From positions 1 to 38,976 of the forward strand of contig CAIYZV010000011.1 of the NCBI GenBank assembly GCA_903930765.1: a stretch of 38,976 nucleotides of DNA, read 5' to 3'. Source of the stretch: an uncultured Pirellula sp. (lineage in GTDB: Bacteria; Planctomycetota; Planctomycetia; Pirellulales; Pirellulaceae). The notes beneath the pieces are model-generated. The model was not told the origin of the DNA and made no database searches. It was given only the letters and a program-made list of their open reading frames with translations. Of this stretch, positions 30,695 to 38,976 are shown piece after piece (the first letter of the stretch is position 1; the number at the start of each line of letters is the position of its first letter). The position numbers and the translations under genes were made by a program.

Positions 30695-32698
30695 CTATTG
30701 CGGGATTTCCTGCTGTTCTGTCGCTTTGGCTTCGAAGAGTGCCAAGGCTTTTTGGAGGGATGGCTGGAATGGATCGAGTGCGACCGCTCGGCGTTGTTGA
30801 TCGGCGGCTTCTCGGTAGCGTTTGAGAGAGGCGTAGCAGTGCGCCAATGTGTCCAGGTATGCCGCTCGATTTTCCATGGAGCAGGCTTTTCGGCTGAAGA
30901 AGAGAGCCTCGTCGAGGTTCCCTTCGGTGTTGGTCATCAGCCAAGCCAGCGTGTTCATTTGGTTGGCCAAGGCGCGTTGTTCGGTGGCCAAGGCCCGCGG
31001 GTTGTCCCGTTTGAGTTCTCGTTCCCTCGCATCGATTTCCGAACGCAGCGAGATTGTGATCTGTTTTTGGAGAGTTTTCCGCTGATCCTTTTGCTCGTCG
31101 GTTTCGGGCAATCGGTACATACCGATGATGGCATCGACGTTTTCCTGCGACAGTTCGATCGCTTTCAGAAAGCACTCGCGAGCTTTTTCGGGTTGTTCTT
31201 TGCGAGCGTAGTCGTTGCCTTGGAACAAGTAGTAATTCGAGACCAAGCTATCGCCACTTTGCTCGGAGACTTGGGTTCGGAACAAAGGTTCGTTTTCGAA
31301 ACGTTTGGCGAACTTCTCGATGGATGCCGCTGCTTCATCGTCCCGCTCGAGTTCATGCAGCAACTGCGATAGTTGAGTCAGGTTGATGATGGTCGCCAGT
31401 TCCGCGGCATCTTCTTGATCTTTTAAAGCCTTGCGAAGTTCCGTCTCGGCCCATGGGAATTGGCCGCGTCGGATCAGGTATTCGGCGAGGGTAGAGCGTT
31501 CAAACGCTTGGGATGCATTCCGAGCGAAAAGGAGTTCCAATTGTGGATTGAGTTGATTCTTTGGATCTTTATCTTTGATCGCGGGTTCACCGCGCGAAGT
31601 GACGGAGATGCGATCCGAGGTTCTTTCGGCGACCTTTTGAGCGAGATCCGCGTTGCCTTGTTGGATCCAGCTTTCGGCGAGCAGATAACCGAATCTCGGG
31701 TCTTGGAGGGCTGAGCGAAGGCTCTCGTGTTGTTCCTGGACCAGTTCCGGCAGATTCACGGTGAGGGCCCACTGTGCGAACTCGAGCAGTTGCTGTTCGC
31801 GTTGAACCCCCATGGATTTGAACGATTCCGGGATCGTGCGTGCGAGGTCGAGTGCAGGTGAGCGATTCGCATCGGTTCTCGGGATTTGCTGAACGACCCA
31901 TTGACGCAGTTCGTTCAGGATCTCGACGCTGGTTTCCATCGATTTGGATTGCAGCAAGTTGGATTCGCGGTTGATGATATCAAGCCATCGATCGAGTTGG
32001 AACTCCTGCGGTTTTGCTGTTTGTTCAAGGACCCAGCGGCTGGCAGAGCTTCGGGATCCATCGAGGAGCGAGGCGACCAGTTCACGCCGTTCGGTTACGG
32101 ATTGTCCAACGTTGGGCTTGCCTCGCATCACATGCAAGGCGGCGAGTTTGGCCAAGCAGCCTTGTGTCTCGTAGCGAACCAGCCTGCAAAGCGCGTTTAG
32201 CCCTTCGTCGTTTTCCAGCTGATTGAGTTGGTTGATAAAACCGGTTTTTTCATGGAGTGCCGCGGCGGTGTAGAGCGTTAGGATCCGTCGAACACGCGGT
32301 GGGTCCGATTCCCAAGCCCAATTGAATTGGTTGCTTTGAACGAGGTATCGAGCTTGGCTGGCGATTTGAGGGTCGGGATCAAAGCTCGCTTGGTGGAGTT
32401 GGTCAAGGGCCCGCACGCCGATCCGTTCCAATTCGCTTTGAGCTTGCAATCGGGTGGAGTAACTTTCGGCGCCGAGTTTTCGAATCCAGGAGGCGATCTC
32501 TTGCTGCAGAGGATCGTCTTGCTGGGCAGAGTCGGTGGTTCCGGTCGAAGTTGTTCCCGACTGGAGCGGAGCCAAACCGAAGGATCGGAGGGAGGGCAAT
32601 CCAAGGCATAGCATTGGGAAAAACACCATGATACCGACGGTGGCGATGCTCGCGCTGTGGCAGCTTTTTCGCGGGCATTTTTGTCGCGTGTTCTGCAT
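30695..32698 (-). CDS. Secreted TPR-repeat protein
   Basis: A 667-residue protein. The N-terminus is basic then hydrophobic (about 18-45), giving a signal peptide or anchor. A Ser/Thr/Gln-rich stretch is followed by an armadillo-like helical part (about 65-150, for example SYSTRLQAQSELERIGVRAL). Much of the rest is predicted helical. Clear TPR units are FERSTLAEYLIRRGQFPWAE, then SNYYLFQGNDYARKEQPEKA and AYLDTLAHCYASLKRYREAA near the C-terminus. TPR proteins mediate protein contacts; the partner is unknown. GGAGGA lies eight bases before the ATG and fixes the start. It is divergent from the PilM-type gene across 443 bp. Confidence 0.82.
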   Translation of the reverse strand: MQNTRQKCPRKSCHSASIATVGIMVFFPMLCLGLPSLRSFGLAPLQSGTTSTGTTDSAQQDDPLQQEIASWIRKLGAESYSTRLQAQSELERIGVRALDQLHQASFDPDPQIASQARYLVQSNQFNWAWESDPPRVRRILTLYTAAALHEKTGFINQLNQLENDEGLNALCRLVRYETQGCLAKLAALHVMRGKPNVGQSVTERRELVASLLDGSRSSASRWVLEQTAKPQEFQLDRWLDIINRESNLLQSKSMETSVEILNELRQWVVQQIPRTDANRSPALDLARTIPESFKSMGVQREQQLLEFAQWALTVNLPELVQEQHESLRSALQDPRFGYLLAESWIQQGNADLAQKVAERTSDRISVTSRGEPAIKDKDPKNQLNPQLELLFARNASQAFERSTLAEYLIRRGQFPWAETELRKALKDQEDAAELATIINLTQLSQLLHELERDDEAAASIEKFAKRFENEPLFRTQVSEQSGDSLVSNYYLFQGNDYARKEQPEKARECFLKAIELSQENVDAIIGMYRLPETDEQKDQRKTLQKQITISLRSEIDARERELKRDNPRALATEQRALANQMNTLAWLMTNTEGNLDEALFFSRKACSMENRAAYLDTLAHCYASLKRYREAADQQRRAVALDPFQPSLQKALALFEAKATEQQEIPQ

Positions 32699-33141: not shown

Positions 33142-35457
33142 ATGGCGAAGAAATTGCAGCACGTTTGGGGGATCGAAATCGGCCAAAGCTCGCTGAAGGC
33201 CCTTCGTTGCCATTTGGAGGGAGATCAGATCGTCACGGATACGTTCGACTTTGTCGAGTATCCGAAGATTCTCTCGCAACCCGAAGCGGAACCGGAGGCA
33301 TTGGTTTCCGATGCCTTGGAGCAGTTTATCTCTCGCAATGATCTCAAGGGAGCCATCCGAATCGGTGTGAGTGTTCCCGGCCAAAGCGGCTTGGCCAAGT
33401 TCTTCAAGCCGCCTCCGGTAGAAGTCAAAAAGATCGCTGACATCGTCAAGTACGAAGCGAAGCAGCAGATCCCGTTCGATCTCAACGACGTTATTTGGGA
33501 CTTCCAGCAAATGGAAGGTGCGCAGATCGAGGATGGGTATGCGCTCGACAGCGAAGTCGGTTTGTTCGCGATGAAAAAGGAAGCGGTTTTCCGAGCGCTC
33601 AAGCCGTTCCGTGACAAGGCGATGGACATCGATTTGGTGCAACTGGCGCCGATCAGTCTGTACAACTTGATCTCCCATGAAAGGTTCGCCGAGAGCATGG
33701 CGAACGACGAATTTGATCCTGAGCATCCGCCGAAGAGTACGGTGATCCTGTCGATCGGTACCGACTCGAGCGACTTGATCGTGACCAATGGATTCCGGAT
33801 TTGGCAGCGAAGCATTCCGATCGGTGGCAATCACTTCACGCGTCAATTGACCAAGGACCTGAAGTTGACGTTTGCCAAGGCTGAGCATTTGAAGCGGAAT
33901 GCCATGCAGGCGGACGATCCGAAGTTGGTGTTCCAAGCGATGCGGCCTGTGTTCAACGACATGGTGACCGAGATCCAGCGCTCGTTGAGCTTCTTCAAAT
34001 CGCTCAACAAAAAGGCCGAGATCGACGGCATGTTGGTGATGGGAAATACTGCAAAAATGCCGGGATTATTGCAGTTTTTGAACAAGAATTTGGGGATGGA
34101 TGTTGAGCTTTTTGACAAGTTCCCCAAGCTGACGGGGGCTGAGGTTTTGGGAGCGCAACCGTTCAAGGAAAATGCGCCGGCTTTCGGTGTTGTCTATGGA
34201 TTGTGTTTGCAATTGCTCAATCGCGGACCGATGCGTACCAACCTTTTGCCGCGCGATATTGTCATCGATCGCGTGATCCGGATGAAGAAGCCGTGGGCGG
34301 TCGGTGCGTTATCGTTGCTGCTGGTCGGGATGGCATCTCACCATGCGATGCTCGGACAAACCTATCGACCTGTTCGACCCGAGATTTGGAAGTCTGCCGA
34401 AGGGGACGTCAAATCGGCAGAAACGACATCGAAGGATGAGATTGCCAAGGACGACAAGTACAAAGGGGATCTCACCAAGTGGAAGAACGTCGGTTCGGAA
34501 GTCAGCAAAGGGGCCCAGCGTCGTTTGATGTGCTTGGAGTTGTACGAAGCGATCGAGCAATCGTTGAATCGAAAGCCGGAGTTGCTGGAAAAGACCCCGC
34601 AAGAGCTTCAGTATAAGGACCGGATGGATTTCCATATCACTCGAGTCGAGCAGCAGTATTTTGACAATCTTGCGACGTGGTATTCCAAAGACTTGAAGAG
34701 CAATTACGCGGATGAACTCAAGTCTCGGCAACAAGCTGGTTTTGCGAAGGAAACGCGTCCTGCGGACAAGGATCCAGATCCGACGGGACCAGGTTGGGTG
34801 GTCGAGTTGCGTGGTTACCACTATTACAACGGTACCGAGAAGAAGGGTACGGAGGGGGCGGCACACGTCACCAACTATCTCATCGATTTCCTGGAGAATG
34901 GCAAGGTTACGTTGCCTTCTGACAAGCCGGGTGAGATGAAAGAAATTTCGATGTACGATCTTGGAGTACGGCGACCCGTGCTTCGCAATAAAGACGCGCG
35001 ACCCGACTACAAGTACCGCGTTAGAAATCCGGAATACGATCGAATTTTGGTGGAGCGAGGCATCACCCCACCGAGCGCAGGAGGTGCATTAGGGGGTGGT
35101 GGTAAGCCGAGTTTTGGTGGCACCGGTGGCAAGCCTAGTTTTGGAGGCACTGGCGGCGGCGGCGGCGGAAGCGGTGCAGGGACCATGATGGAGGAAGAAG
35201 GGAGTGGAGGTAACCTTGCCGGAGGTGGCTTCGGAGGCGGGTCGCTCGGAGGTGGGGCCGCTTCCGTGAATCCATCGGAACCGATCAAGGATGCTGCGGG
35301 GAATCTTGTTCCGATGGACTTTGAAGCTCCTAAATTTGAGTTTGTGGTTCAATTTGCCTGGAAACCGGGAGATTTAGCGACCGCCACAGGGCCCGCCGTG
35401 GCAGCCCCTGCGGCGGCGCCACCGACGACCATCAGCAACGACTCTGGGGATAATTAG
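33142..35457 (+). CDS. pilM: PilM-type actin-like ATPase fused to a membrane segment and C-terminal domain
   Basis: A 771-residue protein. Residues 1-370 are PilM-like, with GIEIGQSSLKAL (phosphate 1), STVILSIGTDSSDLIV (phosphate 2) and MLVMGNTAKMPGLLQFL (adenosine loop). PilM is normally about 350 residues, cytoplasmic, and binds the PilN tail. Here the chain continues through a hydrophobic segment (about 384-400, after RMKKPW) into a coiled, charged part (410-550). A beta-rich domain follows (VVELRGYHYYNGT onward), interrupted by a Gly-rich cassette at about 648-715 before a final strand (KFEFVVQFAWKP, 731-742). GspL/EpsL has a comparable actin-like-plus-membrane layout. Start ATG 33142 with GGGAG upstream. 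First gene of a three-gene cluster. Confidence 0.85.
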   Translation: MAKKLQHVWGIEIGQSSLKALRCHLEGDQIVTDTFDFVEYPKILSQPEAEPEALVSDALEQFISRNDLKGAIRIGVSVPGQSGLAKFFKPPPVEVKKIADIVKYEAKQQIPFDLNDVIWDFQQMEGAQIEDGYALDSEVGLFAMKKEAVFRALKPFRDKAMDIDLVQLAPISLYNLISHERFAESMANDEFDPEHPPKSTVILSIGTDSSDLIVTNGFRIWQRSIPIGGNHFTRQLTKDLKLTFAKAEHLKRNAMQADDPKLVFQAMRPVFNDMVTEIQRSLSFFKSLNKKAEIDGMLVMGNTAKMPGLLQFLNKNLGMDVELFDKFPKLTGAEVLGAQPFKENAPAFGVVYGLCLQLLNRGPMRTNLLPRDIVIDRVIRMKKPWAVGALSLLLVGMASHHAMLGQTYRPVRPEIWKSAEGDVKSAETTSKDEIAKDDKYKGDLTKWKNVGSEVSKGAQRRLMCLELYEAIEQSLNRKPELLEKTPQELQYKDRMDFHITRVEQQYFDNLATWYSKDLKSNYADELKSRQQAGFAKETRPADKDPDPTGPGWVVELRGYHYYNGTEKKGTEGAAHVTNYLIDFLENGKVTLPSDKPGEMKEISMYDLGVRRPVLRNKDARPDYKYRVRNPEYDRILVERGITPPSAGGALGGGGKPSFGGTGGKPSFGGTGGGGGGSGAGTMMEEEGSGGNLAGGGFGGGSLGGGAASVNPSEPIKDAAGNLVPMDFEAPKFEFVVQFAWKPGDLATATGPAVAAPAAAPPTTISNDSGDN

Positions 35458-35647
35458 CGGGCATTGGCTCAATGCCCGTTCGCCCGCTGGGAGTGGGAAA
35501 CGTGGTTTTTGGTGGAATGCCAGAAGCCGCGAATTAGCTGGGGAAAACGCGAACAGTCGGGGCAAACCGGCGGCGCGAATGCGGAAATGTACAATTCGAG
35601 CGATACGTCAAAAAAGACAAAGATACGTTTAAAAATAAGGTGAATCC

Positions 35648-37564
35648 ATGGACGATTTCAAACGTTACATGAACGAGGCGATGAAGTATTCCTTCTGGAT
35701 TGTTTCCGGATTGGTGCTGATCTTGGCTTCGGTGATTTTCTACTTGACCAAGTCCGAGTTGGATTCCGCGATCTCGAGTCGAAAAAGTACACTCGATACA
35801 GCATTTAAGAATATCCAAGCGGTGAGTTCGAAGACTTCCACCCATCCCAATGATGCTTCTCATAAGGAAATGACCAAGCGGTTGGATATCCTGAAGCAGG
35901 ATGTGGCTGAGGCGTGGAAGTTCCAATACGAACGGCAAAAAGAGTTTTTGACATGGCCAAAGGATGCGTTTTTTCAACCGAAGACCTACGAGATCTTCGA
36001 TAGCTTGAGACCGTTCGAAAAGGTCGTTCCATTTCCGTTGCCGGACAAGCCACCCGCCCCTTTGGATTTGGTAACGGTGCGGGATCGTGAAGTTTATCGA
36101 GGTTACATCGCTCCTGAGTTTCCCGAGCTTTCCAGAAGGATTGGGAGCAGCTGGAAGTATTCCATCGACGCGTTCTCTTCGGGTACCGGTCAAGGTGGAT
36201 TTGCTCCTCCGATGGGAACGGGTAGTTTCGCACCTCCGGGATTGGGTGGAGCTGCGGGAGGTACCACCGCATCCGCAGGGGCTGCAAACGATTCGAAAGA
36301 CCTTGTACGTTGGTCTGAGGCATCGCAAAAGGAGTTGGTTTCGGCAGTTTTGCCTTGGTTTTCTCGGCAAGGCCAACCCCCTTCGATTCATGAGATCTAC
36401 TATGCTCAAGAAGACATTTGGGTGATTCGTGGTTTGATGGATATCATCGCGCAGACCAACAGCGATGCTCGCGAGAATTTTCAGGCCGTCGTTCGAGAAA
36501 TCGAGTGGATTCGAACCGGTTCCAAAGTCAGCCGCGATGCTGGGGCACTGTATGCGAGCGCCGCTGCGGGAGGTGGAGGCGGGATGATGGGAATGGGTGG
36601 GATGCCTGGTATGGGGGGAGGAGGTCCTCCTGCAGGATATTCCGGCGGCGGAGCGGGTGGTGCTCCAGCGGGTTACGGTGGTGCTGGTGGTGGCAAAGGG
36701 GGATTGGTACCTGCAGCCGCAGCGCAACGGGTCGACCCGGCCGATGGTCGTTATGTGGACACCAATTTCAAGCCTTTGACGGGTGCACAGCTTCGCTCAG
36801 CAATGAATCTGGCGACTGCCAACGATGCCGTTATCGCAGTCGCAAAACGAATCCCTGTTCGGCTTCGGCTCAAGGTCGACGAGTCGCAGATTGGACGGCT
36901 GATTACCGAGTGCGGTAATGGGAAAATGATGCTCGAGGTGCTGCAACTGCGTTACAACACCGATCCGGCCCCAGCGGCCGGCGCTGCAGGGGGCGGCGGA
37001 GGTGGTGCAGATATGGCGGGTGGCAGTGCGAAGCCGTCCTTCGGTGGTGCAGGCGGGATGGGGATGATGTCCGAAGAAGGAACATCAGGGACCGGGGGAG
37101 CGGCGGCGGCGGCCGGTGCCGACGAGTCGTCCACAGGAGAAATCCCCATCGAAATTTTCGGGCTGATCTACTTGTTCAATCCCCCCCTCCAAGACCTTAC
37201 GGCGGTGCCAAACGGGGCTGCCCCCGCCAACGCGAGCCCAGCGGCTGGAGCTGCGACTGCAGCAACCCCAGCTGTAGCAAATCCGCCTGCGGGGACGGTT
37301 ACGGCACCCGCGGCACCTGCGGCACCTGCGGCACCTGCGGCACCTGCGGCACCCGCGGCAGGGGCTGGAACAACTCCAGCGAACCCGCCTGAGAACGCTG
37401 GCGCAACGACCGACCCGGCCGCAGGAACCGAGGGAACACCGGCAGGTGAGGCTCCTGCTGGGGCGCCGGACCCGGCCGCAGGATCCGGTGATGGGGGTAC
37501 CCCGGCGACACCGCCAGATGGGACCGGGACTACCGAGCCTGCGGGTGATCAAGGTGGCGGATGA
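35648..37564 (+). CDS. Single-pass membrane protein of the PilM-type cluster, PilN/PilO-like candidate
   Basis: A 638-residue protein I cannot assign to a named family. A short cytoplasmic tail (1-13) is followed by one membrane helix (about 14-33) and a charged, probably coiled segment (35-110). A domain with two Gly-rich insertions comes next (about 185-215 and 310-360). After that, VRLRLKVDESQIGRLITECG and a following MMLEVLQLRYN (404-445) and EIPIEIFGLIYLFNPP (498-513) look like strands of a small alpha-beta domain of the kind seen in PilN, PilO or GspM. The last 120 residues are Ala/Pro/Gly/Thr-rich. It follows the PilM-type gene by 190 bp. The pilus-platform role is inferred from this architecture and position. 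Confidence 0.7.
   Translation: MDDFKRYMNEAMKYSFWIVSGLVLILASVIFYLTKSELDSAISSRKSTLDTAFKNIQAVSSKTSTHPNDASHKEMTKRLDILKQDVAEAWKFQYERQKEFLTWPKDAFFQPKTYEIFDSLRPFEKVVPFPLPDKPPAPLDLVTVRDREVYRGYIAPEFPELSRRIGSSWKYSIDAFSSGTGQGGFAPPMGTGSFAPPGLGGAAGGTTASAGAANDSKDLVRWSEASQKELVSAVLPWFSRQGQPPSIHEIYYAQEDIWVIRGLMDIIAQTNSDARENFQAVVREIEWIRTGSKVSRDAGALYASAAAGGGGGMMGMGGMPGMGGGGPPAGYSGGGAGGAPAGYGGAGGGKGGLVPAAAAQRVDPADGRYVDTNFKPLTGAQLRSAMNLATANDAVIAVAKRIPVRLRLKVDESQIGRLITECGNGKMMLEVLQLRYNTDPAPAAGAAGGGGGGADMAGGSAKPSFGGAGGMGMMSEEGTSGTGGAAAAAGADESSTGEIPIEIFGLIYLFNPPLQDLTAVPNGAAPANASPAAGAATAATPAVANPPAGTVTAPAAPAAPAAPAAPAAPAAGAGTTPANPPENAGATTDPAAGTEGTPAGEAPAGAPDPAAGSGDGGTPATPPDGTGTTEPAGDQGGG
37302..37355. repeat. 9-bp tandem repeat encoding an Ala-Pro-Ala tract
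   Basis: Six units of CGGCACC(T/C)G stand in tandem from 37302 to 37355; the central four are identical. They encode the APAAPAAPA stretch in the C-terminal low-complexity tail. Confidence 0.93.
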
Positions 37565-37708
37565 TTGTGAGTTCCGGCTTGCCGCAAGAAATCCAATCGA
37601 CGCGAAACTAGTGATGAAATTCGACGCAATGGTAGTTATGCTGCTGTCGCGTCAACCTGAGACGAAAGATTCCACCAGTTTGTAGCTCTCTCCTAAAGGA
37701 TGAGTTCC

Positions 37709-38976
37709 ATGTTTGGAAAAAAGAAAAGCAAAGACGAAGCGGGTACACAGCCGGTAGAAAAAGCACCGGCCAAGGCGAAAAAGTCGAAAGCTGGGGGTAG
37801 CTTCAACGCCCAGGAGTTCATGCTCTATCACGCTGAGAAATTCGTTTTCGGTTTGATCGCATTGTTAGCTTTCGGGCTGGTTTATCTCGGCGTCACAGCT
37901 CCATCTTTCGATTCCACGAAAGATCCCCAGAAGTTGTCGGCTACATCGCGCGAGACGCTCACAAAGATCAAAGAAAACCATTGGGATGCGATCAAGAATG
38001 AAGAGGCTCGCGTCAAGGGTGTGACGGATGTCAGTTACACCGAGCGATCGGTGGAGACCACGAAAAAGATTCCAACGGACATCTACAAACCAGAGATCCC
38101 AAGGCCCGGTTCGAGGATCACGGGATTCCGTACCGACCCTGCATTGCTCGCCCCGATCAATGTTGAGTCGAATTACTACTTCGGACCGATCGTGGTTGGG
38201 AACGCGAACCAGCAACTCGTGGATTACTTGAACAAGTTGCCGGATGCGAAGGTGAAGGAAGAGAAAGAGAAAAAAGATAAAGACAACAAGGGTGGCCGTG
38301 GGTCGTTGCCGCCAGGTTATGGTGGCGAAGGTGGCGGGCCTCCGGGAATGGGTGGGCCTCCAGGTACGGGCGGCGGCAAGTCAACGGAGAACAAGGACGC
38401 AAAGCGTTATTTGGCGACCGGATATGATTTGGGTTTCCCTTCCCATACGTTGGCTGCGCCTAGCGACAAAGACAAGGAAAAGGATCCGAAGAAGAAGTTG
38501 GTCGGTCCCCGTGATATTGGCTTCGTTTCTGTAGTGGCTTTGGCCCCTCACCAAGAATTGGAAAAAGAGTACAAGTCAAAGCTGGCGCCTGGCGGAAACT
38601 TGGTGCCAGGGCGAGATACGCCGAATTACGTGGGTTACGAAGTGGAGCGGGCGGATGTTACCGATGACCCGGGCAAAGAGTTGCAGGAATCCGATTGGAC
38701 AGCACTTCCTAACGCGGGTTCGGAACGAATTCGCGAGTTGGCAAAGAGCGTCTGGGTTGGGAGCAACCAAGAGGTCTCTCAAGGAGAATGGGTCGCTCCT
38801 GGAATCTCGATGCCTATCCCCCCGGTGTTGCTCAAGGACTACCGCAAGTTTGCATCCCATCCAGATGTTCCAAGCCTAGACCAGACCGTGTCGGCGATGC
38901 CATCCGGTGGTGCGGGTTCAGGAGGCGGTATGCTCGGGGGTGGTATGCTGGGGGGATTCGGCGGTCTCGGAAACGA
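37709..38976 (+). CDS. Third membrane protein of the PilM-type cluster, 3' end outside window
   Basis: An open frame from ATG 37709 to the right edge (422 codons, no stop seen), so the gene is partial. AAAGGATG just upstream supports the start. The first 43 residues are very Lys-rich and cytoplasmic (MFGKKKSKDEAGTQ). One membrane helix follows (about 45-64, VFGLIALLAFGLVYLGVTA), then an extracytoplasmic part. That part has two Gly/Pro-rich stretches (around residues 195-225, and at the window edge with repeated GGGMLGG) separated by beta-type sequence (DIGFVSVVALAPHQELEKEY, NYVGYEVERADV). I recognise no family. Topology and Gly-rich insertions resemble the preceding protein, which suggests they form one complex. 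Confidence 0.75.
   Translation, partial: MFGKKKSKDEAGTQPVEKAPAKAKKSKAGGSFNAQEFMLYHAEKFVFGLIALLAFGLVYLGVTAPSFDSTKDPQKLSATSRETLTKIKENHWDAIKNEEARVKGVTDVSYTERSVETTKKIPTDIYKPEIPRPGSRITGFRTDPALLAPINVESNYYFGPIVVGNANQQLVDYLNKLPDAKVKEEKEKKDKDNKGGRGSLPPGYGGEGGGPPGMGGPPGTGGGKSTENKDAKRYLATGYDLGFPSHTLAAPSDKDKEKDPKKKLVGPRDIGFVSVVALAPHQELEKEYKSKLAPGGNLVPGRDTPNYVGYEVERADVTDDPGKELQESDWTALPNAGSERIRELAKSVWVGSNQEVSQGEWVAPGISMPIPPVLLKDYRKFASHPDVPSLDQTVSAMPSGGAGSGGGMLGGGMLGGFGGLGN

Follow-up and report, generated by a model that had tools for sequence, protein, structure and literature searches.

In diderm type IV pili, the NLLP-type N-terminal peptide of PilN is the site at which PilM binds. The type IV pilus cluster of Akkermansia encodes, in order, a PilM-like protein, Amuc_1100, Amuc_1099 and a secretin (PMC5332112; PMC10688800), and the secretin, Amuc_1098, carries TPRs (PMC4960237). 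C. difficile has PilM and PilN fused into a single protein (PMC6916266). Work cited in PMC11131199 reported type IV pili for Fimbriiglobus ruber. In Planctopirus limnophila, for which deletion tools are available, three pilQ-like genes have been removed, and pilQ-like genes proved dispensable there (PMC11958385). An earlier note on the DNA described here had held that its PilM-type gene cluster matches no familiar arrangement, a view not supported in light of the order of the Akkermansia cluster and the fusions in C. difficile; in outline, such an arrangement was already known from the gut bacterium Akkermansia.

The window, which is the whole stretch of 38,976 nucleotides that was analysed, is contig C11, one of 527 contigs in a 5.74 Mb draft genome. 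The contig stops at base 38976, inside the last of three genes referred to here as A, B and C, which leaves C truncated and the genes to its right unreadable. The features are as follows.

33142..35457, forward strand: gene A, 771 aa, predicted natural PilM-PilN fusion (PilMN); ATG at 33142, stop at 35457; PilM_2 97 bits
33142..34212, forward strand: PilM-type actin-like domain of A, predicted cytoplasmic (PilM_2, motifs, 5eou alignment)
34237..34254, forward strand: PilN-type cytoplasmic motif TNLLPR, A residues 366-371 (motif of orthologues; aligned to INLLP of 5eou)
34294..34359, forward strand: transmembrane helix of A, approximately residues 385-406, PWAVGALSLLLVGMASHHAMLG (sequence; hydropathy of orthologues)
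34360..35454, forward strand: periplasmic part of A, composed of a coil and an alpha/beta domain that carries a Gly-rich insert; resembles PilN in topology alone (orthologue model)
35648..37564, forward strand: gene B, 638 aa, bitopic, predicted Amuc_1100/PilO-like, helix 16-34, with loops rich in Gly and a disordered tail rich in Pro and Ala (orthologue fold)
37700..38976, forward strand: gene C, bitopic, cut by the contig end (425 aa seen), helix 48-66 (Amuc_1099 position; FN3-like beta domain predicted in orthologues)

Low-complexity sequence rich in Gly, Pro and Ala makes up much of B and occurs in stretches in A and C. Divergently upstream of A, the window encodes a TPR-containing, probably secreted protein (30695-32698, reverse strand). 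The same place in close relatives is occupied by a protein cluster of 21 loci, with members of ~700 aa that are always divergent, and in 50 loci (L052-L130) the divergent upstream neighbour of A belongs to a large protein family with a median of ~980 aa.

Scanning one genome per species yielded 79 loci. The order A-B-C on one strand was found in every Pirellulales locus with more than 3.2 kb after A (59/59), which is clustering far beyond chance and establishes that the three-gene, same-strand PilM-type cluster described in the earlier note is real. A profile that covers A from its motif through the helix to the periplasmic part detected A in all sampled genomes of the window's class (27/27) and matched 35 other genomes of the phylum, mostly over motif, helix and coil only. 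Judged by A, the combination of a PilMN platform and an Amuc_1100-type partner is no oddity of Akkermansia, as it occurs throughout the sampled class and partly beyond it.

Protein A matched Pfam PilM_2 (PF11104) at 97.1 bits over residues 10-357 (cut-off 27) and contains the actin-like phosphate and adenosine motifs WGIEIGQSSLK (residue 9), LSIGTDSSDLIV (residue 203) and GNTAKMPGL (residue 301). Its score against the PilM subfamily TIGR01175 was 132.3 bits, just under the cut-off of 133, and no GspL family in Pfam or NCBIfam matched it at E values up to 1. The NCBIfam model of the Amuc_1101 family (NF045709) scored 174 bits (E 5.8e-51), far under its equivalog cut-off of 650, and was collinear with A residues 44-477, which span the PilM domain, motif, helix and coil. 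The sequence RTNLLPRD precedes the membrane segment and ~365 extracytoplasmic residues follow it, so that A does run from a PilM-type ATPase through the membrane, as first read. A simple hydropathy cut-off narrowly misses the helix in the window protein and detects it at residues 386-404 in close orthologues.

A motif of the form (N/S)L(L/V/I)P lies between the PilM domain and the helix in 70/70 orthologues of A. Furthermore, the engineered PilM-PilN crystal construct 5eou aligned end to end and collinearly with A residues 3-370, which places its INLLP opposite TNLLP; the separate PilN encoded in the same genome starts MHVNLLPPEL. Because a PilN motif follows the PilM domain and the 5eou alignment continues through residue 370, A is, as far as its sequence can tell, a natural PilMN, which agrees with the earlier proposal that the first protein is effectively PilM joined to a PilN-like part. 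In an orthologue model, the periplasmic part of A showed an alpha/beta topology, with pLDDT mostly >90 in the folded portion. Pfam returned no match to the PilN domain PF05137 in this part, profile comparison with PilN (hhalign) was not significant, and no PilN entry was among the Foldseek candidates for the orthologue model; the predicted alpha/beta domain is consistent with PilN.

Sequence searches of B against Pfam and NCBIfam and by PDB profile search assigned no family, PDB sequence searches with profiles of B and C and with compact relatives of B returned nothing credible, and sequence profiles by themselves linked neither B to PilO nor C to PilP. Structure prediction and fold comparison of B, suggested in the earlier note, pointed to Amuc_1100 and then to PilO. 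A single-chain model of the periplasmic part of A plus the whole of B was built from orthologue L118, whose A and B genes lie in the same frame, with the stop read as Gln; L118 is 31-33% identical to the window's parts (33% to B), and 55 aligned sequences entered the model (mean pLDDT 77.5, pTM 0.72). When this model was compared with 350,542 PDB chains using Foldseek, the best eight matches were all Amuc_1100, followed by PilO, and GspM was absent from the best fold matches of B. The Foldseek E value for B against Amuc_1100, 0.25 at best, is not significant alone, and the probability reached 0.92. The B part of the orthologue model aligned with Amuc_1100 structures at Z 10.4-11.0 over 168-175 of 171-182 residues (rmsd 3.6-6.2) and with PilO at Z ~5-6. 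Because the eight top chains represent one protein, and given the probability and Z scores, we conclude that B is predicted to adopt an Amuc_1100/PilO fold that is nearer to Amuc_1100 than to PilO.

Both B and C are single-pass proteins with an N-terminal helix, as the earlier note had described them, with the correction that C is truncated by the end of the contig. The helix of C is preceded by an N-terminal tail of ~47 residues, and complete orthologues are mostly ~680-890 aa. A model from orthologue L062, which is 40% identical to C, had a mean pLDDT of 70 and featured a beta domain that resembles FN3 domains (Z up to 6.8), with no Foldseek E value <0.001. The fold search returned FN3/Ig-like entries alone, with no PilP or GspC among them, a result that excludes neither. 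The position of C corresponds to that of Amuc_1099, and C is possibly a PilP/GspC-like link to the secretin. The suggestion that the second and third proteins replace PilO and PilP is accordingly upheld for B by its predicted fold, and for C, with its predicted FN3-like fold, the assignment to PilP is conjectural.

A giant secretin of ~1270-1360 aa is encoded directly after C in 4/50 loci (L100, L114, L124 and L130). Compact loci outside the class (L203, L204 and L212) likewise have the order PilM-like protein, 1100-like protein, third protein and secretin, which mirrors Akkermansia Amuc_1101-1100-1099-1098. In L203, the proteins comprise 581 (A), 301 (B), 269 (C) and 736 aa (secretin), with L204 and L212 alike, and the L203 secretin, which is the one checked for TPRs, contains them at its N terminus. 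In the window, any secretin after C would lie beyond the end of the contig. Within the window's genus, the secretin, designated D, is encoded elsewhere in the genome and was recovered whole or in part from 9/9 same-genus relatives searched; it was not found in the window's own draft genome, which may reflect an assembly gap. In three relatives of the window's genus (L143, L144 and L146), a gene for ~340-400 aa occupies the same position ahead of the unlinked secretin D. A 1310-aa secretin on contig C284 was considered as the partner and rejected, as it groups with the secretin of contig C345 and resembles the C-linked secretins in the C-terminal domain only. That locus (L043, G000:C284, 2-5121) encodes the 1310-aa secretin and then a 371-aa probable lipoprotein.

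The genome also encodes other pilus and secretion genes, namely PilB-PilT-PilC-pilin, PilMNO and type II-like loci. Contig C400 contains genes for two PilB-type ATPases, PilT (450 bits, cut-off 319), PilC and pilins, and lacks PilMNO and a secretin. The locus on contig C285 (L004, 894-9091) is a conventional set of pilin-like protein, GspE/PilB, GspF, separate PilM and PilN, and a gene in the PilO position; its GspE/PilB carries a c-di-GMP-binding motif that scores over cut-off (48.5 vs 38 bits). The type II-like locus on contig C384 encodes pilin-like proteins and a GspL-like protein of 594 aa with a helix at 323-341; genes for two single-pass proteins come after the latter. Direct linkage of A-B-C to motor genes was found in none of the loci. 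Since the C285 and C384 loci have platform genes of their own, elimination suggests that A-B-C most likely serves the C400 motor. PilT was uninformative as a co-occurrence marker because nearly every genome of the phylum carries it (over cut-off in 193/195).

Taken together, these results make it likely that A-B-C serves a retractile PVC-type type IV pilus as its alignment platform in the inner membrane. This reading is based on the domain order and motif of A, on a conserved gene order that in some lineages extends to a secretin, on the fold predicted for B from an orthologue, and on the motor genes that the genome encodes. The actin-like domain of A in the cytoplasm would hold A's own PilN-type peptide in the PilM groove, and we propose that PilM would for this reason be unable to dissociate from the membrane part. 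One helix of A would lead to a periplasmic coiled coil and alpha/beta domain, with which B, with its predicted Amuc_1100 fold, may pair as the PilO equivalent. C would take the role of PilP/GspC and connect the platform with secretin D in the outer membrane, and the motors PilB and PilT, the platform protein PilC and the pilins would be supplied by the unlinked locus, presumably that on C400.

Alternatively, A-B-C could be a GspL-GspM-GspC platform that belongs to type II secretion and not to a pilus: A resembles GspL in combining an actin-like domain with a helix and a periplasmic domain, compact relatives of B produce weak GspM matches (E 0.016 and 0.056), and the window's genome encodes type II-like loci. 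However, the type II-like locus on C384 has its own GspL-like protein with two single-pass proteins, the family match of A is to PilM, with none to GspL, the best folds for B are Amuc_1100 and PilO without GspM, and the Akkermansia counterparts are attributed to pili (PMC5332112), which together render type II secretion improbable. We regard as more improbable still that the cluster has left the pilus for another envelope structure, for example as an anchored complex at crateriform structures or in division or scaffolding by an FtsA-like protein. A passes the Pfam FtsA cut-off as well (33.7 vs 31.8 bits), secretin and motor genes of Pirellulales are usually encoded away from the cluster, and pilus-like fibres arise from crateriform structures (PMC5394234). 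However, the PilM match of A is far stronger than its FtsA match, the secretin still adjoins A-B-C in several lineages, and PilT is near-universal in the phylum.

The reading of A-B-C as a pilus platform clearly places Amuc_1100, a protein studied as a probiotic, within the pilus machine, where it would be the PilO-like partner of PilMN. The same reading points to genes relevant to the nature of crateriform structures and their fibres. More speculatively, and in our estimate unlikely, the platform of PilMN, B and the FN3-like C, enlarged and Gly-rich, together with a giant secretin encoded elsewhere, might form the inner-membrane base of planctomycete crateriform structures, as a type IV pilus machine reshaped for the binding and uptake of macromolecules.

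Among known systems, PilMNOP of P. aeruginosa, M. xanthus and T. thermophilus shares with A-B-C the PilM fold, the PilN motif and the predicted PilO-like fold of B, but PilM and PilN are encoded there by separate genes, the fold of B is nearer to Amuc_1100 than to PilO, and no recognisable PilP lipoprotein accompanies A-B-C. GspL-GspM of type II secretion likewise combines an actin-like domain with a helix and periplasmic domain and is followed by a bitopic partner, whereas A has PilM and NLLP features in place of a GspL family match, and a separate GspL-like locus is present in the genome. The PilMN of C. difficile also unites PilM and PilN in one chain; in that monoderm, however, a different PilM-PilN contact motif is named in a review (PMC6916266), whereas planctomycete A keeps the diderm NLLP motif between its parts and a secretin belongs to the system. 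Akkermansia muciniphila Amuc_1098-1102 (MUL2 for Amuc_1099-1102) also comprises a PilM-like protein, an Amuc_1100-fold protein, a third protein and a TPR-secretin, in the same order where the planctomycete secretin is linked, and the Amuc_1101 model aligns from the PilM domain to the coil of A. In contrast to that cluster, the score of A lies far below the Amuc_1101 equivalog level, no counterpart of Amuc_1102 was identified, and planctomycete B and C are enlarged by Gly/Pro-rich loops and tails. The planctomycete system is therefore distinguished from that of Akkermansia by its size, its Gly-rich loops, the predicted FN3-like third protein of Pirellulales and a secretin that is encoded apart in most of them.
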